A DNA stretch of 29,370 nt from a virus. The notes under the pieces were generated by a model. It saw only the letters and a list, made by a program, of their open reading frames with translations, searched no databases and was not told the DNA's origin. The stretch is from IMG/VR virus record IMGVR_UViG_3300017782_000132, positions 1 through 29,370 of that record; one strand, 5' to 3'. Both the position numbers and the translations under genes were made by a program. Positions 4,585 through 24,233 of the stretch are shown here, in pieces (position 1 is the stretch's first letter; every line of letters begins with the position of its first letter).

Positions 4585-4588
4585 GGAA

Positions 4589-5902: not shown

Positions 5903-5903
5903 A

Positions 5904-6794
5904 ATGGCAAATTACACAAGACAAAAAGGAAAATTTGGAGGGGTTGTAGGTTCTATTATTGTGCATTCTAGTGCAGGTTTAGGATCAGCAAATGATCCTG
6001 ATTCTGTTCAATTTAAGGAAAAAATTCCTGCAGGTTATTTGCGTTGTGATGGTTCCGTTCTTAACTGCAAAGAATATCTGGCATTATCTAGAGTTCTTGG
6101 GGAAGGTACTACAGGAAGATTTGCAAAAAATAATTCTTCTATCAGAGATCCTGATATTGCTATAAATGATCTAGGTCAATTTCAGTTACCAGATCTAGGT
6201 TCTAAAGTAATTATTGGTGGTAGAGGAACAGGTATTTACAGTAATGATATTGTTGATCGTGGTATTGAAGAAACTAACCCTCTAACTAGAGTTGGACCAC
6301 AAGTTAGTATTGTTAGTAACTTTGGAGATAGAATCGAATCATTCTTTGACGGAAATGCTCGAATGACTCAACAGTCTGTTATCCAATTTATTGGTAATCC
6401 CAGATATAATGTTGAAAGATCTACTTCAGAAACAGAATTAAATATTGAGAACTTCCAGGGTCATGGTCACCAAACTGCAGGTCAAAGATTCTTGAATTAT
6501 ACTGCTAACCACAAAACTGGATTTGGTGGTGGTAAAGATAGAGGAAATCTTTCTGGTAATAGTGGAGCATATAACCAACTTGATGAAGTTAGACAATTTG
6601 GTCGCGAGTCAATCCACAAACATAATATTACTAGACCATTTGAATACAATCATGACTTTACTTACGGTTATGGTCAGCAAGAATTTGATATGAGTGGAGT
6701 TAGTGCATTTATTGACGTTGATGTTTCTAATGATGAAAAATTAGATGAACTTTCAACACCGTTTATTCTTGTAGAATACCTAATCAAGTTTTAA
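5904..6794 (+). CDS. Second tail-collar domain protein
   Basis: 296 residues. The collar domain occupies about residues 13-110: VGSIIVHSS, IPAGYLRCDGSVLNCKEYLALSRVLG, and FQLPDLGSKVIIG. Compared with the upstream protein it has a longer insertion between the first strand and the PAGYLRCDG segment. Histidine pairs H187-G-H189 and H238-K-H240 again suggest a metal-stabilised trimer. The start ATG sits one base after the upstream stop (TAAAATG) with no recognisable Shine-Dalgarno, which suggests translational re-initiation. It is likely a virion tail component; whether it is assembled with its neighbours into one fibre cannot be told from sequence. Confidence 0.78.
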   Translation: MANYTRQKGKFGGVVGSIIVHSSAGLGSANDPDSVQFKEKIPAGYLRCDGSVLNCKEYLALSRVLGEGTTGRFAKNNSSIRDPDIAINDLGQFQLPDLGSKVIIGGRGTGIYSNDIVDRGIEETNPLTRVGPQVSIVSNFGDRIESFFDGNARMTQQSVIQFIGNPRYNVERSTSETELNIENFQGHGHQTAGQRFLNYTANHKTGFGGGKDRGNLSGNSGAYNQLDEVRQFGRESIHKHNITRPFEYNHDFTYGYGQQEFDMSGVSAFIDVDVSNDEKLDELSTPFILVEYLIKF

Positions 6795-6795
6795 A

Positions 6796-8538: not shown

Positions 8539-8539
8539 A

Positions 8540-10036
8540 ATGGGATATCAAACCGCTCACTATAACAGACATGGAAACCCAAATGATTGTGTTGCTTTTA
8601 CGATGTATGTTCCCGATGGTGGGAATTTAAGATCACAAATTAGTAATGTTTATTATCAGCTATTTGGTAGATGGGGTGAACCAGGTGGAGTACAAGGTTG
8701 GGTTAATGTATGGAATTCGCCAAATAATGGTGGATTTTCTAGCGTTTATTCGATGGTTCTTAGTGGCGCTGGCGGAGAACTAGCTAGCGTTAATGCACTC
8801 GGTAAACACACAAATCTCGGGGCTGGTAGTTGTCCTCCCCCACCTGTTTATGGTTGTACAGATCCGAGTGCTACTAACTGGAATCCAAGTGCAAATGTTA
8901 ATGATGGATCTTGTAATTACACCATTTTTGGGTGTATGGATAACAAAGCTTCAAATTATAATTCAAGTGCAAATACTTCTGATGGTTCTTGCACATATGT
9001 TACACCAAGTATTACTATAAGTTGCTCCCCTGCTGCTGTTAAGAGAGGAGAAATATCTACAGTATCTTGGTCAGTTAGTAATTCTACATCCAGAACTTTA
9101 ACTGGTCAAGGTAGTGTTGCAGCAGTTGATAGTGCTGAGGTGAGTCCTGATAATAGTACTACTTATACTCTAGATGCAAGTTATTATAGTTATACTAGTA
9201 ACTCATCCTCGACAACTTTAACTGTTTACATTCCACCAACATTTCATATTGAGGCTGAGAGTACTAGTATTGCTTTAGGTGCTGAAACAACTCTTACTTG
9301 GTATGTTGATGGCGATGGTGATGCTATTTTTTGGACCTCTGGTGGTCTAACCAATAATCTTGTTTCAAGTAGTTCTAATGTAACACCTACAGATACAACA
9401 AATTATTGTGCATATGCAACTGGTCTAGGTGGAGAATCTCCTATAGCCTGTGCAGAAGTTATTGTCAATCAACCACCATCTATTGTATTATTTGATGCTC
9501 CTCTAGAAATTGAATGGGGAGCACAAGGACAAGTAGAAATTGAATATGACTATGTTACCACTAGTGCAGAATTGGAAATGCTTTATGACTTTGAAGATGG
9601 AGAAGGTTTCCAATTACAAGAAACATTAGAATTAGGTATTGCTAGTAGTGCAGAACTTTCAGCATCTGATGCTAATAAAAAAGTAACTGAATCAATTACT
9701 ACTGCTATTACATATAATGATAGTGAGATCCCATATGGACCAAGAAAAATTAGTTGGCGATTAAACCTAGTTGGTGCTGGTGGGACAGCATTTCTAGAGG
9801 TTTTTACAATAATTCTTATTGATGAAACCCCAGATAATATAGCAATTCAAGAAACTGATGACAAATTTGCAACTCAAGAACCATTATATACACCAGATAT
9901 TGCAGCAGATCAGGTAACTATGTCTGATCTATATAATATTGATGATATCGATATTCCAGTAGAAATTAAATCAAACTATCCTATTAAAGTTGATTTAAAT
10001 TTGAATGATAATTGGAAAGATGTAAGGGAAATGTAA
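8540..10036 (+). CDS. Modular adhesin-like tail protein B (Cys repeats, Ig-like, shared tail module)
   Basis: 498 residues. The N-terminal 95 residues are unlike those of proteins A and C. Two tandem cysteine repeats follow at 105-127 and 131-153, with pattern GCxDxxAxNxNxxAnxxDGSCxY (C106/C125 and C132/C151), a motif known from marine bacterial surface proteins. Ig-like domains follow at about 155-230, 232-309 and 312-428; the middle one (LTWYVDGDGDAIFWTSGGL...C...C) is closely similar to one in protein C. Residues 430-498 are the shared tail module. AAGGA lies nine bases before the ATG and the junction is TAAAATG. It is likely a virion adhesin; function is inferred from architecture and position. 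Confidence 0.7.
   Translation: MGYQTAHYNRHGNPNDCVAFTMYVPDGGNLRSQISNVYYQLFGRWGEPGGVQGWVNVWNSPNNGGFSSVYSMVLSGAGGELASVNALGKHTNLGAGSCPPPPVYGCTDPSATNWNPSANVNDGSCNYTIFGCMDNKASNYNSSANTSDGSCTYVTPSITISCSPAAVKRGEISTVSWSVSNSTSRTLTGQGSVAAVDSAEVSPDNSTTYTLDASYYSYTSNSSSTTLTVYIPPTFHIEAESTSIALGAETTLTWYVDGDGDAIFWTSGGLTNNLVSSSSNVTPTDTTNYCAYATGLGGESPIACAEVIVNQPPSIVLFDAPLEIEWGAQGQVEIEYDYVTTSAELEMLYDFEDGEGFQLQETLELGIASSAELSASDANKKVTESITTAITYNDSEIPYGPRKISWRLNLVGAGGTAFLEVFTIILIDETPDNIAIQETDDKFATQEPLYTPDIAADQVTMSDLYNIDDIDIPVEIKSNYPIKVDLNLNDNWKDVREM
8852..8998 (+). repeat. Tandem Cys repeat (two units) in protein B
   Basis: Two 23-residue units, GCTDPSATNWNPSANVNDGSC-NY and GCMDNKASNYNSSANTSDGSC-TY, separated by three residues. 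Each unit has one Cys near each end, suited to a disulfide or a small Asp/Asn-lined calcium site. Confidence 0.8.
9827..10033 (+). repeat. Shared C-terminal module, copy 2 (protein B)
   Basis: Codes for TPDNIAIQETDDKFATQEP... to ...WKDVREM (69 residues). A 29-nt stretch (9944-9972) is identical at DNA level to 8446-8474 in copy 1, so the copies could recombine. Confidence 0.85.
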
Positions 10037-10037
10037 A

Positions 10038-13000
10038 ATGTCAACAGAAACAGCATTAACTTCTAGTATCCCAGCTGATGCTATTATTACAAATTTTACA
10101 AGTAATGGTACTTTAGTTTTACCTGCTGGTGCTGTTGATGTTAACTATACTATTCATGGTGGTAAAGGTGGCCAGGGTGGTCCTGCTAGCACCCGTGTCA
10201 ATACTAGTGGTGCTGCTGGTGCTAGAGGACAAAAAATTACTGGAGTTTTAGCTGGTGTTGGTGGCACAACACTCACAATAACTTTAGGTGGCAACGGATC
10301 TAGATGTTTTGGAGATTCTGGCGCTAATGGTGGTGGTGGATATTGGAATGGTGGACGTGGTGGTAATAATGGTTCCTACGATAGTGAAAGTGGATGGAAT
10401 GCTGGTGGAGGTGGCGGCGGTGGCGGTGCTTCTGTTATTCGTATTAATAGTACTGCATTAGCTGGTGCTGGCGGCGGTGGTGGAGGAGCGTGTATTTGTT
10501 ATTCTAGCAACGGCGCTCTAGACGCAGGTCAGACATCTACTACTATTAATACTAGTGGTGGATCTAATGGCGCTAATGGAATGAATTCTGGTGCTGCATG
10601 GAATGGAGGCGGCGGCGGCGGTGGTGGAGGATTCCCTGGTGCCACAGTAGGGTATGGTTCAGGTGGATATGCTTGGGCTGCTGGTAATGATGGTAGTGGA
10701 TTTGGCGGTGGTGGTGGTGCTGGATTACGCAATGCTTCGTATCATTCTGGTACTTCTTCGACTAACACACCAGACTCAGATACTTCTTATTGTACAATTT
10801 GGTATCGAAATCCCATACCTGAGGTAACTTTAACTACTAGTAGTGAGACAATTGATAGAGGTCAGACTATAACTCTTACTTGGACTTCTACTGCTGGTGC
10901 TGATATTACTAGAACTTTTACAGATGATTCTGGTAACACAATTGTTACCGATCCTATCGCTAGCGGATCTATTGATGTAACACCACCAACTGGCACAACC
11001 ATTTATACATTTGAAGCTTCAAATGTTGCTGGCACTACTGATGCATCAGTAACAGTTGTTACTACTCTTCTTGCACCAACAGCATCTCTAACGACAGATG
11101 ATATTGATAACGTTATTCTTAGTGGTCAAGAAGTAGAACTCACATGGAGTGGTACTGGATATGATGTTTCTAGTTACACCATGACTGGTGTAGCAAATCC
11201 AGGAGTAAGTGGTAGTGATTTAGTAATGCCAACTGCTACAAAAACATACACATATACTGTTGTTAATGCTACTGCTACTCGCAGTAGTTCAAAGACTCTT
11301 TCTGTCATTTATCCACCAACATTTACTTTAAGTGCAAACAAATCAAGCATAACTCCTGGAGAACAAGTTAATTTAACATGGAGTACTAGTGGTACTGCAA
11401 GTACAATTGTGTGGGTTACAACGGCACCTCCAAGCTCTAGTAATATTTCTGGATCGGCAAGTGTTTTTCCAGGTGAAACAACACAATATTGTGCTTATGT
11501 TACTGGTTCTGCAGGAACTAGTTCGACTGTATGTGCGAATATTTTTGTACAGGGAGAGCAAAGTGCAACAAACTATAATGATACTTACACTTCTAATGGT
11601 TCTCATACTGTTCCTGGTAATGCTTATGGTATAGCACTTACAATTGCTGCAGGTAGTGGTGGAGTTGGTGGAAATGATTCTGCACCAGGAGGACAAGGTG
11701 GAGGTGGTCGTAAAACAGTATTATATTTTCCTGATTATGTAGCAAGAACAATTAGTTGGGTTTTAGGTAGTAAGGGTGGTAATGGTTTTGGGTGTGTTTC
11801 TAACTCAGGCGCTGGCGCTGGTGGAGGTGGTGCTTCTAATGGTGGTAATGGAGGTAACACTGGTCCCCAAGGTTGCTCAGGTGGTGGTGGAGGAGGAGGT
11901 GGATCCTCTAAAGTCACCGCCAATCCAGGTGGAACAATTGCTATCGTTGGAGGTGGCGGTGGCGCAGGCGGTGGTTCTCATCCAGGTGCGAGTTTAAGAG
12001 GTGGTAATGGTGGTTCTGGTCTTGGAATGACCAGCGGAAACGGATCTCTTTCAAATGGTAGTACTGGAACCAGTCAGGGTTATGATGGCGCTGGCGGCGG
12101 CGGTGGTGGTGGCGGTGCCCCAGGTGGTGGCGGTGGACGTGAAGGTGCTGACGATAGAGCAGGAAACTATCCATCAGGTGGTGGATCTGGAGGAGCTAGT
12201 TGGTACAATAGTAGTGTAGTTTCATTCGTTACTAATTCTGGTACTTTAAATTTTGGGAATGGATTTGCTGCTATTTCATATCAGTTAGCACCTCCTACTG
12301 TTGATTCTTTTACTGTTAGTAATAGTGCTTTTATTAGAGGAGGTTGTACTACATTAACATGGACATCTTCGTTTGCTCTTGCTGCTGAGATGTCAAATAT
12401 AGGATCCGTTGCAGTAAATGGAAGTGAGGAGGTTTGTCCACTTGTTACTACAACATATACACTTATTGTATATGGTTATGGTGGCACATTTGATTCTTCA
12501 AGTAAAACTATTACAGTTTATATTCCACCTATTCTTATTCTTTCATCTGAAAACGCAAGTATAGTTGTGGGTGGAAGTACTAATATAAGTTGGACTAAAA
12601 ATGCAGATGGTGATGCTGATACTCTCTATTGGACTAGTGGAGGTTTATCTAATAGTTTAATCACTAGTAATCAAAATGTCAGTCCATCTGATACGACAAC
12701 ATACTGTGGTTATCTTACAGGTTTAGGTGGAACTAGTCCTACAGCTTGTCTAACTATTACCGTATTCCAGATACCATCAATCGAAGACTTTCAGGTTCCT
12801 GACGAGTTGTTTTATGGTCAACAGGGTTCAGTAATAGCAGAGTATTTGTATGCAAATAGTTCAGCAACAATAAACATATATTTCTCTTATCTTGATGGCA
12901 ACCCACCAACATTACATAAGAGTGAAAGTTTGACTCCTTCTGGTAGTGCTGAACTTAATGGACTTAATACTTTGGTAGGTGCTCAGATTAACACTCAGGT

Positions 13001-13316
13001 AGTATATAATGATTTTGGACCAAGAGAAGTCATTTATGAGTTAACTATAGTTGGTAGTGGTGGTTTCCGATCAGAGACTAAAACTGTTCCAATTATTATT
13101 GACGAAACCCCAGATAATATGAATTTTGAAGAAACTGATGAAAAATTTGCTACTGAAAACCCAGTATACACACCTGATATTATTCCAGAGCAAACTTTAG
13201 AATCTGACTTATACAAAATTAAAGATATTGATATTCCTGTGGAAATTAAATCCAACTATCCAATCAAAGTAGATATCAATAAAAATGATAGTTGGGATGA
13301 TGTAAGATCAATATAG
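10038..13316 (+). CDS. Modular adhesin-like tail protein C (two Gly-rich and several Ig-like domains)
   Basis: 1092 residues. Domain order: glycine-rich domain 1 (about 18-255, starting FTSNGTLVLPAG), three Ig-like domains (about 259-510), glycine-rich domain 2 (about 512-750, starting YTSNGSHTVPG), three more Ig-like domains (about 750-1020), then the shared module (1024-1092). The two glycine domains contain runs of 7-9 glycines and repeat the same strand pattern, so the protein looks like a head-to-tail duplication of protein A's layout. Two Ig-like domains carry paired cysteines (TQYCAYV...STVCANI; TTYCGYL...PTACLTI). AAGGG precedes the ATG by eight bases. A role as the longest of three related adhesins is inferred. 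The glycine codons create GGC/GGT-rich DNA whose minus strand holds spurious proline-rich frames. Confidence 0.72.
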   Translation: MSTETALTSSIPADAIITNFTSNGTLVLPAGAVDVNYTIHGGKGGQGGPASTRVNTSGAAGARGQKITGVLAGVGGTTLTITLGGNGSRCFGDSGANGGGGYWNGGRGGNNGSYDSESGWNAGGGGGGGGASVIRINSTALAGAGGGGGGACICYSSNGALDAGQTSTTINTSGGSNGANGMNSGAAWNGGGGGGGGGFPGATVGYGSGGYAWAAGNDGSGFGGGGGAGLRNASYHSGTSSTNTPDSDTSYCTIWYRNPIPEVTLTTSSETIDRGQTITLTWTSTAGADITRTFTDDSGNTIVTDPIASGSIDVTPPTGTTIYTFEASNVAGTTDASVTVVTTLLAPTASLTTDDIDNVILSGQEVELTWSGTGYDVSSYTMTGVANPGVSGSDLVMPTATKTYTYTVVNATATRSSSKTLSVIYPPTFTLSANKSSITPGEQVNLTWSTSGTASTIVWVTTAPPSSSNISGSASVFPGETTQYCAYVTGSAGTSSTVCANIFVQGEQSATNYNDTYTSNGSHTVPGNAYGIALTIAAGSGGVGGNDSAPGGQGGGGRKTVLYFPDYVARTISWVLGSKGGNGFGCVSNSGAGAGGGGASNGGNGGNTGPQGCSGGGGGGGGSSKVTANPGGTIAIVGGGGGAGGGSHPGASLRGGNGGSGLGMTSGNGSLSNGSTGTSQGYDGAGGGGGGGGAPGGGGGREGADDRAGNYPSGGGSGGASWYNSSVVSFVTNSGTLNFGNGFAAISYQLAPPTVDSFTVSNSAFIRGGCTTLTWTSSFALAAEMSNIGSVAVNGSEEVCPLVTTTYTLIVYGYGGTFDSSSKTITVYIPPILILSSENASIVVGGSTNISWTKNADGDADTLYWTSGGLSNSLITSNQNVSPSDTTTYCGYLTGLGGTSPTACLTITVFQIPSIEDFQVPDELFYGQQGSVIAEYLYANSSATINIYFSYLDGNPPTLHKSESLTPSGSAELNGLNTLVGAQINTQVVYNDFGPREVIYELTIVGSGGFRSETKTVPIIIDETPDNMNFEETDEKFATENPVYTPDIIPEQTLESDLYKIKDIDIPVEIKSNYPIKVDINKNDSWDDVRSI
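13107..13313 (+). repeat. Shared C-terminal module, copy 3 (protein C)
   Basis: Codes for TPDNMNFEETDEKFATENP... to ...WDDVRSI (69 residues). By eye it is closer to copy 2 than to copy 1. The preceding 100 or so residues (an Ig-like domain with a Y-N-D/T-x-G-P-R/S segment) are also related in all three proteins. Confidence 0.85.
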
Positions 13317-13320
13317 GGTA

Positions 13321-13328
13321 AATAAATA
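13321..13328 (+). promoter_or_regulatory. T4-type late promoter box (AATAAATA)
   Basis: AATAAATA matches the NATAAATA late motif described for T4-like cyanophages (T4: TATAAATA) and lies in the only real gap between the structural genes, 28 nt before the fibre gene at 13356. A six-codon frame, MTGTVS (13331-13351), lies between it and the start. It would let this fibre be expressed independently of the upstream chain. Confidence 0.55.
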
Positions 13329-13355
13329 ATATGACTGGAACTGTAAGTTAAAGGA

Positions 13356-16300
13356 ATGACATATTCATTTGCGCCTAGCAATCAACCACTGTTTGTCAAA
13401 GAAAACGATTACGTCCAGTTTCGTTTTAAGGCACCACCAAGTTGGAATACTACACTTACAGTTACTGTACAAATTGGTGACTTAACTCAGTATTGGTTAA
13501 TCACTACAGTTCCAGAGGATTTTACACCAGATCCTTATCCATTTCAAGAAATTCCTGCCGATCCTGGAGCAGAGCTTGATACTTTATACACATATGCTGA
13601 TGGTAATAGGGCAGGTGAAGAGATTGTTACTGTTACTGGATTAACTCCAACAACACAGGCATCTATTGGACTTGGTTGCAACCTTACTGGTGGCATCGAG
13701 AGTTTTGCGATGCGTATTGATTATAATGGTAATGGTACATGGGATACTGGATGGATTCAAGGTGATGGTTCTGAAGCTGTAGAAAATGGTGCAAAGGTTC
13801 AGGTAAGAGCAAAAACTCAGCAATTTGTTCAAGCTGCTACAAGATTAACACTTGTTATTGGAACTTCAAATGAAGTTTGGGTTATCAATACAAAACCACT
13901 TCCAAAAAATGAACCAACACCATTCCCAAATTTTACTGATTTGGTTGGTCAAGGAGCAAACCTGTTTGCATATACTACTGAAATTATAAGAATTCAAGGA
14001 TTAACAACTACTGCTGATTTCTTTATAACAAATAATGCTCAATGGGCAAAATCTTCTAATAATAACACCAGTACAAATGCTGATGGATATGAAGTATTAT
14101 CTGGTGCAACATTTTCAGGGAGTAATGGAACTGTAAGTAATGGCGATTACATTCAATTGAGAATGCTTACTTCAGCCAATTCAAATACAGCTGTCGATAC
14201 TGGTATTACAATTGGTGATGCATCTTCTCAATTTAATGATGATGGCGCTGATGAATGGGAAGTTGAAACTGGTAATCTCCCATCTTTAACTCCAAATCAA
14301 TTTTCTTTCCCTGATAAATTTGATCAGTTAGAAGATGCAATTATTGGATCTGCTGAGAGAACAATTGCGGGACTTAGTGCTGGAATTAAAGTACCAGTAA
14401 CTTTAGTTAGTACTAGTGCAACTGAGGCTTATGTTAAGATCAATAATGGATCTGTTGGTTTATTTCCTACCGAAGTTGAGAATGGAGATGTTATCTCAAT
14501 TTACTTAAGGTCATCACCACTGTTTAATGATGACAGAGACATGACTATTAAAATTGGAACTCAACAAATTTCAACATGGACTGTTTTTACTAATACTGGA
14601 CCAGATTATGATGCTATATTTAATCCACCATTAAACAAGACAGGGCAAATACCATCTACATTTGTTAGTAGTGCTCCCATAGTTATTGAAGGTATCAATA
14701 GACCAATTACAATTGCAAATACTGGTGGATATCCAGCATTAATTTCTATTGATTTTGATACTCCAGTATTAGGTCCACGTACATTTGATCCTGCTGTCAA
14801 TACCAGTATTTACTTACTTGTCTTTAGTGCTGATCAACTTGCAACAACAGAAAATACAACAATTGTTATTGGTACAGAAGCAACTAATGTATCCGCAGTT
14901 ACTTTCACATGGTCAGTTACTACTTACGCTACTGTACCACCAGGAGCGGATAATTTAGGTACTTGGTATAGTAAAAAAACTGAGAAGTTTGATGGATATG
15001 ATGTTGGTTCAGTTGTTCCAATTCTAAAAGAAGGTGTTGGTGGATATGGAGATCTACAGGGTGGTCTTGGATCTAGATATGCTGGATGGATTGAATGTGA
15101 TGGTAGATCTGTAAATGTAGCAGACTATTTTGATCTATATGGAGTAATTGAAGATCATTATGGTGGAAATAATATTAATATATCGTATAATTTAAATGGA
15201 GATTTAGTTTCGGTTAGTGGAACATTTAACTTACCAGACTATCGTAATAGAAGATTATGTGGAATTGGTATTGTTGATTCTTCTAGAGGAAACTCAGCAC
15301 AATTGGATATTACTACCTCTGGTGGAAATATTAATACTCCTGGTAGTGAAGGTGGTTTCTGGTACTTTGATAGAGTATCTGTTGATGGATCTCCTCCACT
15401 AGAACAAATTCAGGGTACAACTGAATCTTCAACTGAAGGAACTCTTAGTAGATTCTTTAGTCTTGGTACTGTAAGAATTCAAGGTTTGGAAACAATTACA
15501 GATTCTGTTTTGTTTAGTATTGGTGGTAGTGTTACAGCAAAGATTGGTCCTCTTCAGGAAACAGGTGTTTCTGTTCCTGAGCATAGTCATTCATATGTTA
15601 CTGCTGTTGTTGAAGGTGATGGTGGTGCTCCTCTTATTAGATGGGGAACTAGAGCATTAATGGCTACAGGTAAAGGAAAACCAAATCCAGATGGATATAG
15701 TAACAGTTTTACTTCATTCCAAAATGATCCTACAGTTAAAACAACGATTGGATCATTACCTCAAATTGATCCTAGTGATTCTGGATTTACAAACGCAGTT
15801 GTTGGTGTATGGAACACTTGGATTACTGCTAACTTATCTTCTAACTTCCAAGCAGAATTATCAAGAGCTGATCCTAATTGGACAAGCTTGACACAATGGA
15901 TTACTGATAATGTTCCGACTAATGCATCTGGTCTTGCAATAAATGAAGCTTCTATTGTTAACTTTAGCGTTAAAACCACTTCGTTTATGGTTTGGTTTAC
16001 AAGTCCTATTTCTGAACTTAGTGGAACTCCACTTGGTGGTCTAGGTGGTGCGCGAGCAGGTATGATTGATACAGAAGAATCATCATTCTTTGTTACTCCT
16101 TCACAATCAGTAGCTGGTATTACTAACACTCACTCACATATTATTACTGAAAATGTTGTTGGCAATCCAAATACTGATTTTAGTGGTGGTAATGTTTCTG
16201 GTGCAGGTACTAGAGGTGCTCCATTTGGATCTGGACTACAAGGTACAAAGACAGGAGCAAATCTCCAAGTTACATTTAATCAGACAGAACTATTCATGGA

Positions 16301-16433
16301 TATGACTGAAGGTACATTTGAATTTACTAGTTCATTCAAGAAACCAATACCTAGTGTTACCATGAAAGCGCAGCGACAGGTTCCAATTCTCAACCCATTC
16401 CACAAAGCTAAATACATCATTAAAGCATATTGA
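13356..16433 (+). CDS. Repeat-containing tail fibre with collar domain
   Basis: 1025 residues. About residues 1-545 contain four to five tandem beta-rich repeats, each with a segment like NGDxIxxR, an IGT/IGD turn, then W-x-V/I-x-T followed by a Pro/Phe-rich linker (PDPYPFQE, EPTPFPNF, TPNQFSFPD). A tail-collar domain follows at about 548-635 (GSVVPILKEG, AGWIECDGRSVNVADYFDLYGVI, FNLPDYRNRRLCGIG). Histidine pairs H743-S-H745 and H926-S-H928 match the HxH metal signature of collar fibres. It is likely a distal fibre or a baseplate short-fibre analogue. Unlike the tightly joined genes upstream it has a 39-nt leader with a late-promoter-like box, and AAAGGA touching the start, so it may be transcribed separately. 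Confidence 0.78.
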   Translation: MTYSFAPSNQPLFVKENDYVQFRFKAPPSWNTTLTVTVQIGDLTQYWLITTVPEDFTPDPYPFQEIPADPGAELDTLYTYADGNRAGEEIVTVTGLTPTTQASIGLGCNLTGGIESFAMRIDYNGNGTWDTGWIQGDGSEAVENGAKVQVRAKTQQFVQAATRLTLVIGTSNEVWVINTKPLPKNEPTPFPNFTDLVGQGANLFAYTTEIIRIQGLTTTADFFITNNAQWAKSSNNNTSTNADGYEVLSGATFSGSNGTVSNGDYIQLRMLTSANSNTAVDTGITIGDASSQFNDDGADEWEVETGNLPSLTPNQFSFPDKFDQLEDAIIGSAERTIAGLSAGIKVPVTLVSTSATEAYVKINNGSVGLFPTEVENGDVISIYLRSSPLFNDDRDMTIKIGTQQISTWTVFTNTGPDYDAIFNPPLNKTGQIPSTFVSSAPIVIEGINRPITIANTGGYPALISIDFDTPVLGPRTFDPAVNTSIYLLVFSADQLATTENTTIVIGTEATNVSAVTFTWSVTTYATVPPGADNLGTWYSKKTEKFDGYDVGSVVPILKEGVGGYGDLQGGLGSRYAGWIECDGRSVNVADYFDLYGVIEDHYGGNNINISYNLNGDLVSVSGTFNLPDYRNRRLCGIGIVDSSRGNSAQLDITTSGGNINTPGSEGGFWYFDRVSVDGSPPLEQIQGTTESSTEGTLSRFFSLGTVRIQGLETITDSVLFSIGGSVTAKIGPLQETGVSVPEHSHSYVTAVVEGDGGAPLIRWGTRALMATGKGKPNPDGYSNSFTSFQNDPTVKTTIGSLPQIDPSDSGFTNAVVGVWNTWITANLSSNFQAELSRADPNWTSLTQWITDNVPTNASGLAINEASIVNFSVKTTSFMVWFTSPISELSGTPLGGLGGARAGMIDTEESSFFVTPSQSVAGITNTHSHIITENVVGNPNTDFSGGNVSGAGTRGAPFGSGLQGTKTGANLQVTFNQTELFMDMTEGTFEFTSSFKKPIPSVTMKAQRQVPILNPFHKAKYIIKAY

Positions 16434-16438
16434 TTGTT

Positions 16439-17107
16439 ATGGCGGTTGAACCATTTCGTCCCCTTGAGTTGATGAAAAATAAAGACTTCACGAAGTCTGA
16501 TTTTACTGATTTTATAGGGGTTTGGGAGAATTTTGTTCCTAAACCCCTTTGTGAAGAGATTATGGCATATGCGGATAAGATTTATGATTATGCAGGATCT
16601 TACTCTAATAATTCAGAAGTTGTTCCTCAGTCTAAGTATCAAAACTATGTCTATGATTCTTCTGAAGCATATGCTGGAGCATTAAACAGAAAAGATACTG
16701 TTTTTATTATGGATTATGCAGAGAAAGATTTATCATATAAAGTTAACGCATGTTTAACTGCTTGCGTTAAACACTATGTTTCAGAGTATCCTTCTCTGGT
16801 ACAATCAAATCTAATGTCAACTGACATTAAGTTTCAGAAAACTCCTCCTGGTGGTGGTTATCACATCTGGCATTATGAAAATGCTGATATGGCTCATTCT
16901 ATGCGTGATGTTGTTTGGATGATTTATTTAAATGACATGCCTGATGGTGAAGCAGAAACTGAGTTTTTGTATCAGAGAAGGAGAATCAAACCATCTCAAG
17001 GCACGGTAGTTATCTGGCCTGCTGGTTATACTCACACCCATAAAGGAAATACAGTCCTCAGTCAAGATAAATATATCTTGACAGGATGGTACATCAAAGC
17101 AAAATAA
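16439..17107 (+). CDS. 2OG-Fe(II) oxygenase, P4H-like (HxE variant)
   Basis: 222 residues from the ATG at 16439; a TTG at 16430 is in frame but overlaps the upstream stop and is less likely. The protein has the shape of prolyl-4-hydroxylase-like dioxygenases: F-I-G-V-W-E-N-F-V-P near residue 25, a PPGGGYHIWHYE segment giving H145-x-E147 as proximal metal ligands, VVWMIYLNDMPDGEAETEF as the core strand, and VVIWPAGYTHTHKGN with H199/H201 as the distal ligand and K211 as a candidate 2-oxoglutarate contact. Such enzymes hydroxylate peptide or small-molecule substrates; the substrate here is unknown. It follows the fibre gene by 5 nt, so it could be expressed late with structural genes. Confidence 0.8.
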   Translation: MAVEPFRPLELMKNKDFTKSDFTDFIGVWENFVPKPLCEEIMAYADKIYDYAGSYSNNSEVVPQSKYQNYVYDSSEAYAGALNRKDTVFIMDYAEKDLSYKVNACLTACVKHYVSEYPSLVQSNLMSTDIKFQKTPPGGGYHIWHYENADMAHSMRDVVWMIYLNDMPDGEAETEFLYQRRRIKPSQGTVVIWPAGYTHTHKGNTVLSQDKYILTGWYIKAK

Positions 17108-17111
17108 ACTC

Positions 17112-18032
17112 ATGGACGAAAGAATATCTGTTTTAGAAGTTGATTTTATCAATAATTGGGTCGCTTTTGTTCCTGATTGGTTTACTGGTATGGTAATGCC
17201 TGCTGATAGACCAAAGAGAATAAGATGCGATGCAACTATTGCAGAAAGATTTCTTAATGGTGCTGTAGCAGAACTATGGCATGATGCATCAAAAGATAAG
17301 ATGGAATTTTTCCAATATTTCTCGACAGGTCATTATTTCTGTCAACGATCAAAGAAAGTATATGACTTTGCATCGGAAACAAGTTATTGGAAAACTTATT
17401 CTTTTAAAGGTGCTACTAATGCACAAGCAGAAGAACTTTATAAGTTGATGATGGATTACTATGATGTTTCTTTAGAAGTTAAAGAACTCAAAGTAAGAGA
17501 GAATATCGATGCAATTGACAAAGAGGCAGTCTATTTTGAAGATAGATACATGAAACTGAGGCGTCAGAAAGATGAAATGCTGACGATGACAGATTGGCGT
17601 GTTCTTCCAGATATTGAAGATAAGTATGAGGGAGAGAAAGATCTTTGGATGAAGTGGAGGAAATATATTAGAGAATCTATTTGTGAACGTCCAGATGCTT
17701 ATGAAAACAATCTAGCATATTTCAAAGCAACATATGAAAAGAAGTTTCCAGTTGATCCAGAGGTCTACAGAGCAAAATATGATGGTGTAACTGATGCACC
17801 TGAATATATGGATGCTAATGACCCAAAACAGTGGGTCGGACATGATAGTGAAGCATCAAAAGATTTCATGCATAATAGAGAACTTAGCATTTATAATATG
17901 GCAGATAGTTATACTGCATCTCGTAGAAAAGTCAGACAAGCAGTTATTGATATTCTAAAACTTGTAGATGCAGAAGATGTTGTTCCAGTCGATTGGAGCG
18001 TATATTATGTACATGATTCTGAACTTGAATGA
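17112..18032 (+). CDS. Tail-assembly-chaperone-like protein
   Basis: 306 residues. Residues about 148-190 (KLRRQKDEMLTMTDW, then VLPDI and WMKWRKYIRESI) match the pattern R-x-x-x-L-x-x-TDW-x-x-LPD...W-x-x-YR found in phage tail-fibre assembly chaperones (Phage_tail_APC type). Similar motifs usually sit directly behind fibre genes, which fits this location. The N-terminal 110 residues (RFLNGAVAELWHDASKDKMEFFQYF) are unrecognised and the C-terminal part is charged and helical. The real role could be folding or tip attachment of the large fibres upstream; this is inference from one motif plus position. The stop overlaps the next start (ATGA). Confidence 0.5.
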   Translation: MDERISVLEVDFINNWVAFVPDWFTGMVMPADRPKRIRCDATIAERFLNGAVAELWHDASKDKMEFFQYFSTGHYFCQRSKKVYDFASETSYWKTYSFKGATNAQAEELYKLMMDYYDVSLEVKELKVRENIDAIDKEAVYFEDRYMKLRRQKDEMLTMTDWRVLPDIEDKYEGEKDLWMKWRKYIRESICERPDAYENNLAYFKATYEKKFPVDPEVYRAKYDGVTDAPEYMDANDPKQWVGHDSEASKDFMHNRELSIYNMADSYTASRRKVRQAVIDILKLVDAEDVVPVDWSVYYVHDSELE

Positions 18033-18511
18033 TACACGAAATTGATTTACTAGATGATGATCAACTAAAATATATTACTCAATACTTCAAATACATGAAG
18101 TTTGATAATGGTATACTAAGTCACCCTGGTTCAGATAAGGTCTGTGAGACAGTATTTGATGGACCAGGGCATTTACATATGAATGATTATTGTAGATCTA
18201 TAGTAGAAACTAAACTACCTATCAATTTGAGTAGAGTATCACAGATATATTTTGTCAAATATGATGTTGGTGGTAAATATGAAAATCACTATGATGCTAA
18301 TCCATGTGGTGGTGTGAGATCAGACTATAGTATGACTTGTTTTCTTAATGATGATTATGATGGAGGAGAGTTAGTGATAGAGAATGAACATAGTATTAAA
18401 TTATCAAAAGGTAAAGCAGTAATATACCCAGGTAATTTACTTCATAGAGTGAATGCGGTTACTTCTGGTAGACGAGATGTATTTGTATGTTGGTTAGAAT
18501 GTAATGGATGA
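18029..18511 (+). CDS. 2OG-Fe(II) oxygenase, PKHD/P4H family
   Basis: 160 residues, a compact complete double-stranded beta-helix dioxygenase. The signature is clear: YFVKYDVGGKYENHYDAN with H87-x-D89, then SMTCFLNDDYDGGELVI, KGKAVIYPGNLLHRVNAV with distal H139, and R149 in SGRRDVFVCWLE positioned to bind 2-oxoglutarate. Family members hydroxylate proline or other residues of proteins, or act on small molecules; the substrate here is not predictable. The start overlaps the stop of the gene before it and the end overlaps the start of the next oxygenase by 8 nt, indicating a translationally coupled operon. Confidence 0.88.
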   Translation: MIHEIDLLDDDQLKYITQYFKYMKFDNGILSHPGSDKVCETVFDGPGHLHMNDYCRSIVETKLPINLSRVSQIYFVKYDVGGKYENHYDANPCGGVRSDYSMTCFLNDDYDGGELVIENEHSIKLSKGKAVIYPGNLLHRVNAVTSGRRDVFVCWLECNG

Positions 18512-19019
18512 TATTAAATCATATAATAAGGTATTTTCAGAAAACGATTGTAAGTTGATATATGATCGTATGGAGAGTCATAATTGGTATTTTGGTCATG
18601 GGTCTCGTATTGTTAACAATCGTCTTGTAGGAACACCATTTTGGAGGATGGACTTGAAAGATGATGAGTTCTTCAACAAATATCTTCTAAATATGATTGA
18701 AGAGAAGACTCAACAACACTATGAATTGTATGATGTGTATGCTAATGGACATACATTTGGAACAAGTGGTTCCTTTCATGTAGATTGGCATGATGCATCA
18801 GGAAGAACTTTTCTTTTTTATGCAAATCCTTTTTGGAGAATAGAATGGGGAGGCAAAACTGTATTTGATGTAGATGGAGAATATCATTTCACCATACCTA
18901 AACCAAATTCAGCAATACTATTTCCTGGTATAATCCCACATGCTGCAGAAGGAACATCTAGATCATTTGTAGGTTTACGTACAACAATTGCTTGGAAACT
19001 AATACTTAAAGACTCATGA
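18504..19019 (+). CDS. 2OG-Fe(II) oxygenase, third in cluster
   Basis: 171 residues. SGSFHVDWHDASGRTFLFYANPFWRIEWGGKTVF carries H92-x-D94 and the core strand; ILFPGIIPHAAEGTSRSFVGLRTTIAWK provides distal H146 and R153 or R159 as the 2-oxoglutarate partner. The fold assignment to Fe(II)/2-oxoglutarate dioxygenases is good, although the protein is more divergent than its upstream neighbour. The aromatic-rich NPFWRIEWGG segment is distinctive. Substrate unknown. It overlaps the previous gene by 8 nt and the next gene by 4 nt (ATGA). Confidence 0.8.
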   Translation: MDDIKSYNKVFSENDCKLIYDRMESHNWYFGHGSRIVNNRLVGTPFWRMDLKDDEFFNKYLLNMIEEKTQQHYELYDVYANGHTFGTSGSFHVDWHDASGRTFLFYANPFWRIEWGGKTVFDVDGEYHFTIPKPNSAILFPGIIPHAAEGTSRSFVGLRTTIAWKLILKDS

Positions 19020-19363
19020 ACTCAGACTACGAAATTTTCTATTTTGATAATTTTATAGAAAGGTATGCTATTGCTAAAGAAACAGCAGTCGTGTACTTTA
19101 GATCTTTTGGTTGGAACAATAGCACAGACGTAGATGCTATCAATAAATCAAGAGAATTCTATAAGGATATACTTCCTCTAGATATTTGGACTGCATTAGA
19201 CAATTCTGAATTTGCATTCATGGAAGTCTCTAATATTGAAGAGACGATGGATTGGTTAGATTCTAACTTCCCTTCAACACAGGAAGGACTACCAACACCT
19301 GAGAATTATATTCATTATTCCTTGTTTAATGCCAAGGGTCAGATAATCTTTGATAATAATTAA
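19016..19363 (+). CDS. Hypothetical protein in oxygenase cluster
   Basis: 115 residues, not recognised. It is acidic and aromatic-rich (YEIFYFDNFIERYAIAKETAVVYFRSFGWNN), with no cysteines or obvious catalytic motif, and mixed helix/strand propensity. The ATGA overlap with the upstream oxygenase and a 1-nt gap to the downstream start show it belongs to the same operon. It could be a partner or small subunit of one of the enzymes around it, but nothing in the sequence proves this. Confidence 0.65.
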   Translation: MNSDYEIFYFDNFIERYAIAKETAVVYFRSFGWNNSTDVDAINKSREFYKDILPLDIWTALDNSEFAFMEVSNIEETMDWLDSNFPSTQEGLPTPENYIHYSLFNAKGQIIFDNN

Positions 19364-19364
19364 G

Positions 19365-20219
19365 ATGTTTTCGGATACTTTTTCACTAACAGATAAATAC
19401 GATCTCTCTACTGGTGAGAAAATCTCAACTATTGAGAGAATGCCACGTAGATTTACATCTCTGAAAGAGTGGCAATATCTCCCTGCTCTTGATCAGGATA
19501 TTGTAGACAAGTTGAATCTATACTTTGATTTCAAGTTCATCGATCAAAGTTATCCTATGCTAGAAGCATATAGATATTTGGATATTGCATATAATGACGA
19601 TGGTATTCAATCATTCTATAGTATCAATAATATTGGTTGGAGTGCATTAAATTCATCTCCAAACACATGGAAACTTTTTTGTAAAAAGATTGGGTGTCCT
19701 GAATTAGAGTTTGATAAAGAAAAGATTGATGAGATGACTTGCGCCTCTGATGCTCCATATACATCACTATCAGGTATCTTGTACGATAAAGATGCAAACT
19801 ATAGTGGATTGCGTATCCATGATTCAACATATGATTTGCAGAACTATTCTAATGAGTTAATTGTGAAACTCAACGACTTTGCAAAGACTAGTTCACTTAC
19901 GAAGGGAACTGTTAGTTTCTTACATGGAAGTGGTCTTATTGGATATAGAAGTTTGTTTGATTTTATTAATCGTCATGTTAATAAGGGTGGATACTTAGAA
20001 TCAGACACGCTATTATTAAAGACTAGAGAATATCTTTTGAATAAGTTAGTTGATAATGATTTTATTACTGAAGATGATAGATCTTTCATTCAGGATAAAT
20101 GTATAGGTCATAGTTATTACTCACTAGAACATGTTGTCACATCTAATGGTGAGTTGCAAGGCAAATACTTCTTACATCACAAAGTAGATAACTTTTCTGA
20201 CTTGACAACAATTCAGTAG
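19365..20219 (+). CDS. Hypothetical protein between oxygenases and halogenase
   Basis: 284 residues from the ATG at 19365; a TTG 15 nt earlier is in frame but overlaps the upstream stop. No family was recognised. The chain has evenly spread charged and aromatic residues, segments such as RRFTSLKEWQYLPALDQDIVDKL and SGILYDKDANYSGLRIHDSTYDL, and a C-terminal helical part (FINRHVNKGGY..., LLLKTREYLLNKLVDNDFITEDD). There is no signal peptide or membrane segment. Its last codons overlap the -35 box of a promoter for the next two genes, so it probably closes the oxygenase operon. Confidence 0.65.
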   Translation: MFSDTFSLTDKYDLSTGEKISTIERMPRRFTSLKEWQYLPALDQDIVDKLNLYFDFKFIDQSYPMLEAYRYLDIAYNDDGIQSFYSINNIGWSALNSSPNTWKLFCKKIGCPELEFDKEKIDEMTCASDAPYTSLSGILYDKDANYSGLRIHDSTYDLQNYSNELIVKLNDFAKTSSLTKGTVSFLHGSGLIGYRSLFDFINRHVNKGGYLESDTLLLKTREYLLNKLVDNDFITEDDRSFIQDKCIGHSYYSLEHVVTSNGELQGKYFLHHKVDNFSDLTTIQ

Positions 20220-20243
20220 CATGGTACGATAGCGAGATTCGCT
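20202..20243 (+). promoter_or_regulatory. Sigma70-like promoter plus small hairpin before the halogenase operon
   Basis: TTGACA at 20202-20207 is separated by exactly 17 nt from TACGAT at 20225-20230. A perfect 5-bp inverted repeat (AGCGA-GAT-TCGCT, 20231-20243) follows at the expected transcription start and could be an operator or a 5' RNA hairpin. The start codon of the 76-residue gene is at 20251. The -35 lies in the end of the preceding coding region, so the halogenase pair can be transcribed independently by a host-type RNA polymerase. Confidence 0.5.
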
Positions 20244-20250
20244 GATCTAT

Positions 20251-20481
20251 ATGAAAGTGCCAACCCAAGTACATTTGCAGCATATGCAATTGCAAGCGAT
20301 GTTGCGTGATAATAATATTCCAGAGTCAGAGTTGATGTATTGTGGCGAACGTGAGTATACTACAGACTATGCTGCCCATCCAGAGTATCATGGACAGTTA
20401 ATGCACTGGTACATGATCGCTGGTGAGCATGAAGTTCCTGTGTGTGATATTCAATCTGTTGATAGAGTTGATGAAGAATGA
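20251..20481 (+). CDS. Hypothetical small protein upstream of the halogenase
   Basis: 76 residues, not recognised. It is polar, with several Met, His and Tyr residues (QVHLQHMQLQAMLRDNN, PEYHGQLMHWYMIAGEHEVPVCDI), no transmembrane segment and an acidic C-terminus. It lies directly behind a sigma70-like promoter and its stop overlaps the halogenase start (ATGA), so the two are co-expressed. A link to halogenase function, for example as partner or flavin-supply factor, is only guilt by association. Confidence 0.6.
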   Translation: MKVPTQVHLQHMQLQAMLRDNNIPESELMYCGEREYTTDYAAHPEYHGQLMHWYMIAGEHEVPVCDIQSVDRVDEE

Positions 20482-21599
20482 AGATCGCGATTGTAGGTAG
20501 TGGTAATGCAGGATCTATTACTGCATTAAACTTTGGTTATTATGGTGGAAAGTATGGTAATAACATGGTTGAGATTGACTTATATCATGATCCAAACTGT
20601 CCTATTGAAAAGGTAGGACAAAGCACAACACCTGATGTATTAGAGTTGATCTCTTCATCACTCAATATTGACTGGTACAATAATGATATTGGTGCTACTG
20701 TCAAGTATGGTATATGGTATGAGAATTGGGGTAAGAAGAACAAGAACATTTATCATAAGTTCTACATGCAGAATATTGCATGTCATTTCCAAACACACAG
20801 ACTATCAGAGAAAGTAAGACAGTCTGAGTATGTTAATACAATTGAGAAGTGTGTCTTAGATCCAGAGTCAGAGATTGATGCTGATTATATCTTTGATTGT
20901 CGTGGTAAGCACTATAACAATTGGGATGATTACAATACTCTGATCAATCCACATAACTCAGCAATTATTGCTTTCGCTGATGGTGCTGATCCAGATCTAC
21001 GTGATACTAAATGTGTTGCGACACCACATGGTTGGACATTTGTTATTCCTAATCATGATAGTGTTTCGTATGGTTATTTGTATAATAATACTATAACTAC
21101 AGATGAGGAAGCAAGAGCAGATTTTCTTGAGAGATTTGATGTAGGTGAACACGAGATTGCTGATACTCTGAGATTTCGCAATTATATTGCTAAGTCTATG
21201 TTTGAGGGTGAGAGAACTATTCTTAATGGTAATAGATTTGCATTTCTAGAACCACTAGAAGCAACGTCAACTACATTCTATCGTAATGTTGCTGGTCATG
21301 CATGGGATTATATCTTTAACAAGCGTACAAAGCAACAGCAAGACGATAACATACATCAAATGATGAAAGATATTGAGACGTTCATCCTGTGGCACTATCA
21401 GTATGGGTCTCAGTTTGATACACCATTCTGGGACTATGTGAAAACACTACCATTCAATCCAGATTCTAGATTCAAAGAATTACTACAGGAGTCTATCACA
21501 ACTCCCCATGTTGTGCTAAACTGTCACAGTCTGACATCTCCTACATATGGCATTTGGCCACGAACTAGTTTCAAAATATGGCATGAGGGTGCAGTTTAG
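20478..21599 (+). CDS. prnA-like: Compact tryptophan-halogenase-like flavoprotein
   Basis: 373 residues, well below the roughly 500 or more usual for flavin-dependent tryptophan halogenases. The Rossmann start MKIAIVGSGNAG has GSGNAG at residues 7-12 for FAD. EKVGQSTTP (44-52) aligns with the conserved flavin-loop region, K76 in ATVKYGIWYENW sits where the catalytic lysine is found, and EPLEAT (258-263) matches the catalytic-glutamate segment. The hallmark W-x-W-x-I-P is present as WTFVIP (186-191), with phenylalanine in place of the second tryptophan. Such enzymes use FADH2, O2 and halide to halogenate indole rings. PrnA-like genes are known from cyanophages, but substrate and activity here are unproven. 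The catalytic alignments are by eye. Confidence 0.8.
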   Translation: MKIAIVGSGNAGSITALNFGYYGGKYGNNMVEIDLYHDPNCPIEKVGQSTTPDVLELISSSLNIDWYNNDIGATVKYGIWYENWGKKNKNIYHKFYMQNIACHFQTHRLSEKVRQSEYVNTIEKCVLDPESEIDADYIFDCRGKHYNNWDDYNTLINPHNSAIIAFADGADPDLRDTKCVATPHGWTFVIPNHDSVSYGYLYNNTITTDEEARADFLERFDVGEHEIADTLRFRNYIAKSMFEGERTILNGNRFAFLEPLEATSTTFYRNVAGHAWDYIFNKRTKQQQDDNIHQMMKDIETFILWHYQYGSQFDTPFWDYVKTLPFNPDSRFKELLQESITTPHVVLNCHSLTSPTYGIWPRTSFKIWHEGAV

Positions 21600-22765: not shown

Positions 22766-23377
22766 ATGATCCGCGACATCCTAGAAGACTCCTGCAACAT
22801 CCTTACAGAAAAGTTTGATGGTGGTGTGGGTCTCACTTCTACTCCTCTCAAGGCATACTCTGGTCCTGCTCTAGAAGAGTGGTCCGAGTTGACTATTAAA
22901 CTCATTATTTCTTATCTGAATGAAAAGTATCCTGATGCTGTGATTGAGTGGGGTAAAGGTTATCTTGACTCAGACTTTGATGGTTTCGGTCGAGAGCGTC
23001 TTGATCAGCATGTGAAGGTTAATGGTAAGTATGCTTATCTGCAGGAAGATCGTGCTTGGGTGGACAAACCCTTCTACACTCTGAAACGTGCTGTCATTCG
23101 TAACATCATGATCTCATGTGATTCTCAAATGCATGAGAATGTGAAGTTCGGTCTTGTTGGTTACTCCATCGACATTAGGCAAGATCTTGTTAATACTTGC
23201 AACCACACTCAAGGTTATGGTGATCGTATTGAGCGTTTTTCTCTTACTGGTCGCCCTCGCAACAAAAAAGTGAACGGCAAAACTGTCAATTGGTTTGAGA
23301 CTGGTTTTGTTGACACTACTGTGCTAAACTATATTGAATACGTATACAAATCTCTGGAGGATGCTATTCTTGCCTGA
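22766..23377 (+). CDS. Unknown protein paired with a methyltransferase; possible restriction nuclease
   Basis: 203 residues, family not recognised. The pairing with a DNA methyltransferase (16-17 nt overlap) suggests a restriction-modification partner. A segment D80-QHVKVNGKYAYLQ-E94-D-R96, followed by AWVDKPFYTLKRAVIRN, loosely resembles a PD-(D/E)xK core with Arg in place of the usual Lys; length fits a type II enzyme. This is a hypothesis only. Alternatives are a methyltransferase accessory protein or an unrelated small phage protein. It begins right after a terminator, with a CAACCCC leader lacking a Shine-Dalgarno. Confidence 0.6.
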   Translation: MIRDILEDSCNILTEKFDGGVGLTSTPLKAYSGPALEEWSELTIKLIISYLNEKYPDAVIEWGKGYLDSDFDGFGRERLDQHVKVNGKYAYLQEDRAWVDKPFYTLKRAVIRNIMISCDSQMHENVKFGLVGYSIDIRQDLVNTCNHTQGYGDRIERFSLTGRPRNKKVNGKTVNWFETGFVDTTVLNYIEYVYKSLEDAILA

Positions 23378-24233
23378 TCTCACTCTCTACAACGGTGACT
23401 GTTTAATTGAAATGGATAAGATTGAGGATAATTCCGTCGATCTTATCTTGTGTGACTTGCCGTATGGTACAACTGACCGCAAGGGCATCAAAAAAACAGG
23501 TGATAACCGTTTGTTAGCGTGGGATACTGTCATTCCTCTTGATAAGTTGTGGGAACAGTATAAACGTGTGCTCAAAGATTTGGGCACCGTTGTACTCACA
23601 GCAGATCAACCATTCACTAGTATGCTGATCATGAGTAATCTTGATTGGTTTAAGTATGAGTGGATATGGCAGAAGAAAAAGACAACTGGTTTCCTATTGG
23701 CAAACTATCGTCCTATGAAACAGACTGAGGATATTGTTGTGTTCTCTCCTGGTGGTGCTGCTGCAGCATCACGTAATGGTGGCAACATGACATATAATCC
23801 TCAGGGTCTGATTGAGAAGAATGTAAAGAAGAAGAATAGTGCTAAGCGTTTGGGTAAGTTCTTACACAATCCTGAACATATGGGTGCTGGTAACAAACTA
23901 CTGCATGAGACTGAGTATGAGCAGAAGTGGACCAACTATCCTAGTGAGTTGATTGAGTTTGGACTTGATAGGAATGTTATTCACCCCACACAGAAACCAG
24001 TTGCTTTGATGGAGTATCTCATTCGTACATATAGTGATGAGGGTGAGACTGTGCTTGACAATTGCATGGGATCAGGTACAACTGGTGTGGCATGTGTGAA
24101 TACTAATCGTAATTTTATTGGTATTGAGATGAGTGACGAATACTATTCCGCATCATGCGAACGCATACGCGGAACTGTGCCACTTCAACAACCTGCACAC
24201 ACCACCGTCACGGACCACCTTGAGGGTGTATGA
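23361..24233 (+). CDS. DNA N6-adenine (or N4-cytosine) methyltransferase, beta class
   Basis: 290 residues from the ATG at 23361; GGAGG touches this ATG and would be better spaced for a TTG at 23370, so the exact start is uncertain. An earlier in-frame TTG at 23334 is disfavoured. Motif IV DLPYG (32-36) is N-terminal, and the SAM-binding motif DNCMGSGTTG (233-242) with GIE (254-256) is C-terminal, the beta-class order. HPTQKP (208-213) is the usual motif before it. It transfers a methyl group from S-adenosylmethionine to DNA bases, probably protecting phage DNA from restriction. The target sequence cannot be read from the protein. It overlaps the possible nuclease gene upstream. Confidence 0.88.
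   Translation: MLFLPDLTLYNGDCLIEMDKIEDNSVDLILCDLPYGTTDRKGIKKTGDNRLLAWDTVIPLDKLWEQYKRVLKDLGTVVLTADQPFTSMLIMSNLDWFKYEWIWQKKKTTGFLLANYRPMKQTEDIVVFSPGGAAAASRNGGNMTYNPQGLIEKNVKKKNSAKRLGKFLHNPEHMGAGNKLLHETEYEQKWTNYPSELIEFGLDRNVIHPTQKPVALMEYLIRTYSDEGETVLDNCMGSGTTGVACVNTNRNFIGIEMSDEYYSASCERIRGTVPLQQPAHTTVTDHLEGV

Follow-up and report, generated by a model that had tools for sequence, protein, structure and literature searches.

We analysed a 29,370-base DNA fragment of a marine cyanobacterial virus from IMG/VR (IMGVR_UViG_3300017782_000132; hereafter, the window), which is most closely related to T4-like phages of Synechococcus, and examined a cassette of enzyme genes at the end of its tail-fibre region. 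Genes across positions 1198-16433 matched tail-fibre and virion-structural families in PHROG, ending with a short-tail-fibre or collar-type fibre of 1025 amino acids (13356..16433, on the plus strand like all cassette genes; phrog_4924, PHROG E=0) that anchors the cassette. The fibre is followed by ox1, a prolyl 4-hydroxylase (P4H)-like 2-oxoglutarate (2OG)-Fe(II) oxygenase (16439..17107, 222 aa; HxE...H...K; PF13640, 1.5e-9; phrog_61, 1.6e-53), a tail (fibre) assembly chaperone (17112..18032, 306 aa; phrog_4697, 8.4e-96), ox2, a PiuC/PKHD-like 2OG-Fe(II) oxygenase (18029..18511, 160 aa; HxD...H...R; PF13640, 5e-13), and ox3, a third 2OG-Fe(II) oxygenase (18504..19019, 171 aa; phrog_274; PF13640, 8e-5). 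Next come two conserved cassette proteins, p4883 (19016..19363, 115 aa; phrog_4883, 4.6e-50), which is syntenic in most loci, and p4851 (19350..20219, 289 aa), for which an AlphaFold2 (AF2) model predicts a prenyltransferase-barrel (PT-barrel; ABBA prenyltransferase) fold, then the small conserved protein p2020 (20251..20481; phrog_2020, 2.4e-29) and a short flavin-dependent halogenase (20478..21599, 373 aa; PF04820, Trp_halogenase, 1.5e-36).

A sequence-only reading had described positions 16439-21599 as an enzyme island of three oxygenases and a halogenase-like flavoprotein lying directly behind the fibre genes. Its coordinates and gene calls were correct, while its inventory was incomplete, overlooking the chaperone, p4883, p4851 and p2020, the last three of which are in the conserved block. 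Only ox1 directly follows the fibre; the chaperone intervenes before ox2 and ox3. The ATGA-type coupling that had been claimed for the oxygenases exists between the chaperone and ox2 and between ox3 and p4883, as it does between p2020 and the halogenase, whereas ox2 and ox3 overlap by 8 nt (ATGGATGA) and ox1 overlaps neither neighbour. The position of the chaperone changes the interpretation of the cassette, because ox1 then falls between the fibre and the protein expected to aid its assembly. The domain Phage_tail_APC (PF16778) was found in 4/7 members of the chaperone family (best E 2.5e-13), the window member scoring just 0.43. A scan for promoters and terminators returned no more matches than shuffled sequence.

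The H-x-D/E...H sites of the oxygenases, read as intact from the sequence alone, proved virtually invariant: H145-x-E147, H201 and K211 of ox1 in 111/111 distinct homologues, H87-x-D89, H139 and R149 of ox2 in 94/94, and H92-x-D94, H146 and R159 of ox3 in 77/77. The basic residue for the C5 carboxylate of 2OG, K211, R149 or R159, is invariant in each. Relative to the curated cut-off of 27 bits for Pfam 2OG-FeII_Oxy_3 (PF13640), ox1 and ox2 score above and ox3 below, at 23.9. Judged by these residues, all three are 2OG-Fe(II) oxygenases with intact catalytic sites, for which hydroxylase activity is predicted. A lysine ten residues past the distal histidine is presumably a P4H trait, and the H201/K211 pair of ox1 fits it. 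The sole solved-structure match of ox1, to a prolyl hydroxylase (PDB 5c5t), is weak (E 0.015).

Public records and PHROG name the family of ox3 (phrog_274) 'DNA endonuclease V'. This function was ruled out by the invariant 2OG HxD/H/R set, and the label would best be read as a propagated misannotation. The same name, together with an earlier DNA-repair suggestion for 2OG enzymes cited in PMC3037559, is what speaks for nucleic-acid modification or repair by the oxygenases; given that ox3 has both the invariant 2OG residues and a weak 2OG Pfam match, and that, among proteins of solved structure, ox1 and ox2 come closest to hydroxylases of the P4H and PKHD types, we regard such a role as highly improbable.

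The gene order fibre-ox1-chaperone-ox2-ox3-p4883-p4851 was found again in S-PM2, ACG-2014e/j, S-RIM32/44 and scores of viral contigs, and six annotated phage regions (S-PM2, S-RSM4, ACG-2014e/j, S-RIM32 and S-RIM44) share the cassette order. In a first set of loci, which includes overlapping ones, 127/182 ox1-family open reading frames (ORFs) were flanked by a fibre upstream and the chaperone downstream, and a further 27 by the chaperone alone, a few of the fibre misses arising because the script chose the wrong gene. A second scan took the fibre as its anchor and so carried no bias towards ox1; it covered the best 80 fibre loci, which are fairly near the window's type, and found a 2OG gene next to the fibre in all 68 testable loci and the chaperone after it in 67/67. 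When loci were anchored on the chaperone, a 2OG gene lay directly upstream in 63 of 72; in the other nine that place was taken by another, mostly large, gene. The upstream structural gene is largely different in S-RSM4-type loci (phrog_30655, with a short phrog_4924 stretch), and ox1 and the chaperone still come next. No fusion of an oxygenase to the fibre or chaperone occurred among the ORFs of the first 245 sequences.

Sequence divergence followed the same boundaries. Across 33 non-redundant loci, pairwise distances of the fibre correlated with those of the chaperone (0.93), p4851 (0.90), ox1 (0.89), ox3 (0.88), p4883 (0.81) and ox2 (0.70), compared with 0.28 and 0.26 for p495 and p535, encoded ~1.5 kb further downstream; as these two reference genes are short (64 and 97 aa), the contrast is indicative, not exact. 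Because fibre distances correlate through p4851 and poorly beyond it, the block thus evolves as a unit with a sharp boundary after p4851, and the halogenase lies outside that unit. The 3' side of the halogenase holds small genes and then a DNA methyltransferase (23334-24233; phrog_67). Downstream of the fibre cassette, S-RIM32 (L004 10589-11179) and S-PM2 (L005 11791-12399) carry a gene annotated as ferrochelatase; a 2OG-ferrochelatase pairing has been reported in pelagiphages (PMC9599517).

We propose that positions 13356-20219 form a tail-fibre module in which a collar-type fibre is grouped with its assembly chaperone and with dedicated enzymes, and that the oxygenases among these modify the fibre; we give this interpretation a probability of about 0.5. 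The fibre link is favoured because ox1 is placed between fibre and chaperone, persists there past a change of upstream gene type, and belongs to a block that diverges together. In the likeliest scheme, side chains of newly made fibre would be hydroxylated by ox1, and probably also by ox2 and ox3, either while the chaperone holds it or before it folds with the chaperone, drawing 2-oxoglutarate, O2 and Fe(II) from the host, and the modified product might alter fibre folding, stability or receptor binding. We infer the fibre as substrate, as well as the residues modified and the effect of their modification. The fibre itself has two HxH pairs (H743/H745 and H926/H928), invariant in 6 fibres, which we take to resemble the metal-binding histidine pairs of T4 gp12/gp37.

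The chief competing explanation is auxiliary metabolism, in which the oxygenases would use free host metabolites, or 2-oxoglutarate itself in nitrogen-stress signalling, and their location at the fibre would reflect the clustering of late or accessory genes. A 2OG/NtcA model has been proposed for cyanophages (PMC3037559), and 2OG oxygenases are numerous and scattered in such phages, with 24 in S-SCSM1 (PMC10665884). Remoter ox1 relatives also sit away from fibres, one of them by a sugar-nucleotide epimerase (L082), which counts both for auxiliary metabolism and against a dedicated fibre enzyme. This explanation leaves without account the 68/68 placement between fibre and chaperone, the persistence of ox1 past a change of structural gene, and co-divergence with the fibre rather than with nearby genes, and we consider it unlikely. 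The sequence-only reading had given virion modification and host metabolism equal weight and had proposed comparing neighbourhoods for co-variation; that comparison favours the oxygenase-fibre link. Modification of the fibre by the oxygenases therefore ranks ahead of free-metabolite roles as the best reading, favoured for ox1 and less so for ox2 and ox3.

Several points weigh against fibre modification, besides the shortness of the reference genes and the closeness of the scanned fibre loci to the window's type. Gene neighbourhood cannot establish a substrate, and the enzymes could ride with the fibre merely since host-specific genes travel together. The nine chaperone loci that lack an adjoining 2OG gene show that the chaperone does not require one, and ox2 and ox3 are absent from some cassettes (L026, L035, L047 and L174-L177). 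Neither modified virion peptides nor hydroxylated or halogenated cyanophage fibres were found in the open literature searched, subscription journals lying mostly outside the search. Finally, the fibre adjoining ox1 contains no collagen-like run of at least four Gly-X-Y units, and the specific proposals of proline hydroxylation and tryptophan halogenation made from the sequence alone found no direct support. Four short glycine-rich runs are present in the gene at 10038-13316 and not in the ox1-adjacent fibre. That gene encodes a structural protein that contains poly-Gly tracts, has a glycine content of 18.9% and is possibly a polyglycine-type adhesin.

The last gene of the co-diverging block encodes a protein that is unannotated in the public records of relatives. 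All 50 listed structure matches of the p4851 model (pLDDT 88) were ABBA prenyltransferases (Z 13.0-9.9), including cyanobacterial enzymes acting on indoles and on cyanobactin peptides, and predicted structures of homologues from five Synechococcus phages agree with the window model. Searches of Pfam, NCBIfam and PDB sequences gave no prenyltransferase match and so do not support p4851 as a prenyltransferase recognisable by sequence. Few basic residues are conserved, namely K16 (96% basic), R/K75 (85%) and R34 (74%), and prenyl transfer is doubtful because they are so few. What the model predicts is thus a PT-barrel fold, with no convincing conserved diphosphate site; we claim the fold for p4851 and not the activity.

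The halogenase-like flavoprotein of the sequence-only reading is borne out by its PF04820 match and by retained catalytic residues. Its AF2 model (pLDDT 91.7) is closest to AbeH (Z 37.7), and K76 and E261, the equivalents of catalytic K79 and E346 when mapped through alignment to RebH/PrnA, show no variation in two alignments, of 60 and 56 sequences. A loss of the catalytic lysine, suspected by eye, was ruled out by the alignment of K76 with K79. The dinucleotide motif GxGxxG is present as GSGNAG, with G7 and G9 invariant, while WxWxIP is not kept and appears as WxFxIP, W186 and F188 being invariant in both alignments. Compared with PrnA and RebH, the protein lacks ~70 residues between positions 97 and 100 and seems also to lack the C-terminal region with its Trp-binding module (373 aa versus 490-550 aa); sequence alignments stop near residue 330, although the last helix of the model can still be matched with residue 450-480 in the larger enzymes. 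Because of this shortened form, and because the second tryptophan of WxWxIP is a phenylalanine, 'tryptophan halogenase' is to be read as a family label and not as a substrate.

The distribution of this short halogenase differs from that of the oxygenases. A chaperone gene is present at the loci of only 21 of 90 related ORFs and absent from those of the other 69, some of which adjoin psbA, talC, gp33 or gp23. In seven loci (L194 and similar ones), the short halogenase is next to or within two genes of a psbA-like D1 gene. On the tree, all cassette halogenases except L222 form one supported group, and because of this grouping the gene apparently entered the 3' end of the fibre cassette once, as a later addition. 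These observations, together with the iodination of free aromatics in vitro by its characterised cyanophage relative VirX1 (PMC8407142), suggest that the halogenase may be a passenger that halogenates free aromatics and is unrelated to the fibre, an explanation that we find quite plausible, though somewhat short of an even chance. Set against it are the enzyme's recurrent 2OG neighbours described below, the position of its closest relatives (L166 and L168, 78-80% identity), which abut a 2OG gene within a fibre-chaperone locus, and the existence of halogenases for tryptophan within peptides or proteins, such as MibH and ChlH, the latter acting on residues inside peptides and some proteins (PMC12518702). 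In L166 and L168 that 2OG gene is a different one, and ox1 is absent. Halogenation of the fibre, part of the original proposal, is accordingly weaker than hydroxylation; we consider it possible and do not favour it.

Outside the cassette, a 2OG gene directly adjoins the halogenase in 15 of 52 non-redundant loci and lies within two genes in 20. The controls, which are other auxiliary metabolic genes rather than random genes, gave 0/72 and 3/72 for psbA and 0/17 and 1/17 for talC at the same two distances, and the idea that any accessory gene adjoins 2OG genes was ruled out by the absence of direct neighbours (0/89 for both controls together). The tree forces at least eight label changes for a 2OG gene within two genes of the halogenase, which means that the pairing was gained or lost on several occasions. 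Proximity to tail fibres was not clearly different between halogenase loci with a 2OG neighbour (7/20) and those without (5/32). Individual arrangements include L222 and L223, whose short halogenases form a separate lineage within the family (~43% identity to the window enzyme) and come last in the order fibre, 2OG gene, tail-fibre-assembly-type protein and halogenase, and L206 and L215, in which three consecutive genes encode a 2OG enzyme, the halogenase and a fibre of 2652 aa. It is probable that the short halogenase and a 2OG oxygenase often have a substrate or pathway in common, and that in some lineages the halogenase acts on the same substrate as the adjoining oxygenase.

Alternatively, the enzymes might tailor a host surface polysaccharide or a small molecule, tied to the fibre through host recognition or the exclusion of rival phages. 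The recurrent adjacency of short halogenases and 2OG oxygenases is in keeping with this, as are a cyanophage cluster of amino-acid halogenase, 2OG oxygenase and carbamoyltransferase genes, for which capsule decoration or a secondary metabolite was proposed (PMC7824862), and the assignment of metaviromic-island Fe(II)-dependent oxygenases to a host-recognition category (PMC3909814). No sugar-related gene, carbamoyltransferase or small-molecule methyltransferase was identified in the window's cassette, whose conserved neighbours are instead the fibre and its chaperone, and we judge tailoring of a surface or metabolite improbable. A further scheme, which we hold to be equally speculative, resembles the maturation of ribosomally synthesized and post-translationally modified peptides: hydroxylases, a halogenase for protein-bound tryptophan and a PT-barrel protein for binding or prenylating aromatic residues would together tailor the fibre, with a dedicated chaperone. 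If that were true, a host-recognition protein would bear modified residues that its sequence does not encode.

Few unexplained gene families of marine cyanophages are as common as the 2OG oxygenases, and published guesses at their role include nitrogen signalling, DNA repair and polysaccharide work. The fixed slot between a fibre and its own chaperone offers a concrete alternative that can be tested directly, namely that the receptor-binding apparatus is modified after translation; host range would then be set by chemistry besides fibre sequence. Public genomes already show the components and their order. 2OG oxygenases and prnA have long been known in cyanophages (PMC3037559, PMC2984593), oxygenases of host-recognition islands were tabulated in 2014 (PMC3909814), and the jumbo-phage cluster of halogenase and 2OG oxygenases has been on record since 2021 (PMC7824862). 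Three results appear to be new and were not found in the open literature searched: the quantification of the fibre-oxygenase-chaperone linkage, the recurrent pairing of short halogenase and 2OG gene with its controls, and the PT-barrel partner.

As in prolyl 4-hydroxylases (PDB 5c5t), the distal histidine of ox1 is followed ten residues on by lysine, whereas their HxD is HxE in ox1 (111/111). The HxD...H...R core of ox2 is like that of PiuC and Sbal_3634 in the PDB (E 1e-11 to 2e-12 over ~80 residues); those proteins have 225-243 aa, and ox2, with only 160, lacks the C-terminal part, although its homologues in S-PM2 and S-RIM32 have ~231 aa and the S-PM2 one is annotated PiuC. The p4851 model has its fold in common with the aromatic prenyltransferases NphB, AmbP1, KgpF, PagF and PatF and differs from them in lacking a sequence-profile match and in its few conserved basic residues. 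VirX1 of cyanophage Syn10 (PDB 6qgm) has the same fold as the window halogenase (Z 29.4, 348 residues aligned), detectable sequence kinship (E 7.8e-12) and the catalytic lysine and glutamate of the family, but it is longer, at 531 aa, the window enzyme appearing to lack most of its C-terminal region and part of its substrate-binding region, and free-aromatic iodination is a property assayed for VirX1 only.

At the level of gene clusters, S-PM2, S-RSM4, ACG-2014e/j, S-RIM32 and S-RIM44 share the succession of fibre, 2OG gene, chaperone, 2OG gene, 'endonuclease V' (2OG) and small protein, with p4851 recognisable in ACG-2014e/j too. S-RSM4 differs in its largely different structural protein upstream and in an additional small gene between chaperone and ox2, and none of the six has a halogenase there, a further 2OG gene or a helicase standing where the window has it. 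The cluster of the jumbo cyanophage S-SSM6a (PMC7824862), like the window, places a halogenase by several 2OG oxygenases; its carbamoyltransferase, small-molecule methyltransferase and sugar phosphatase have no counterpart identified in the window's cassette, where the partners of the enzymes are instead a fibre and its chaperone.

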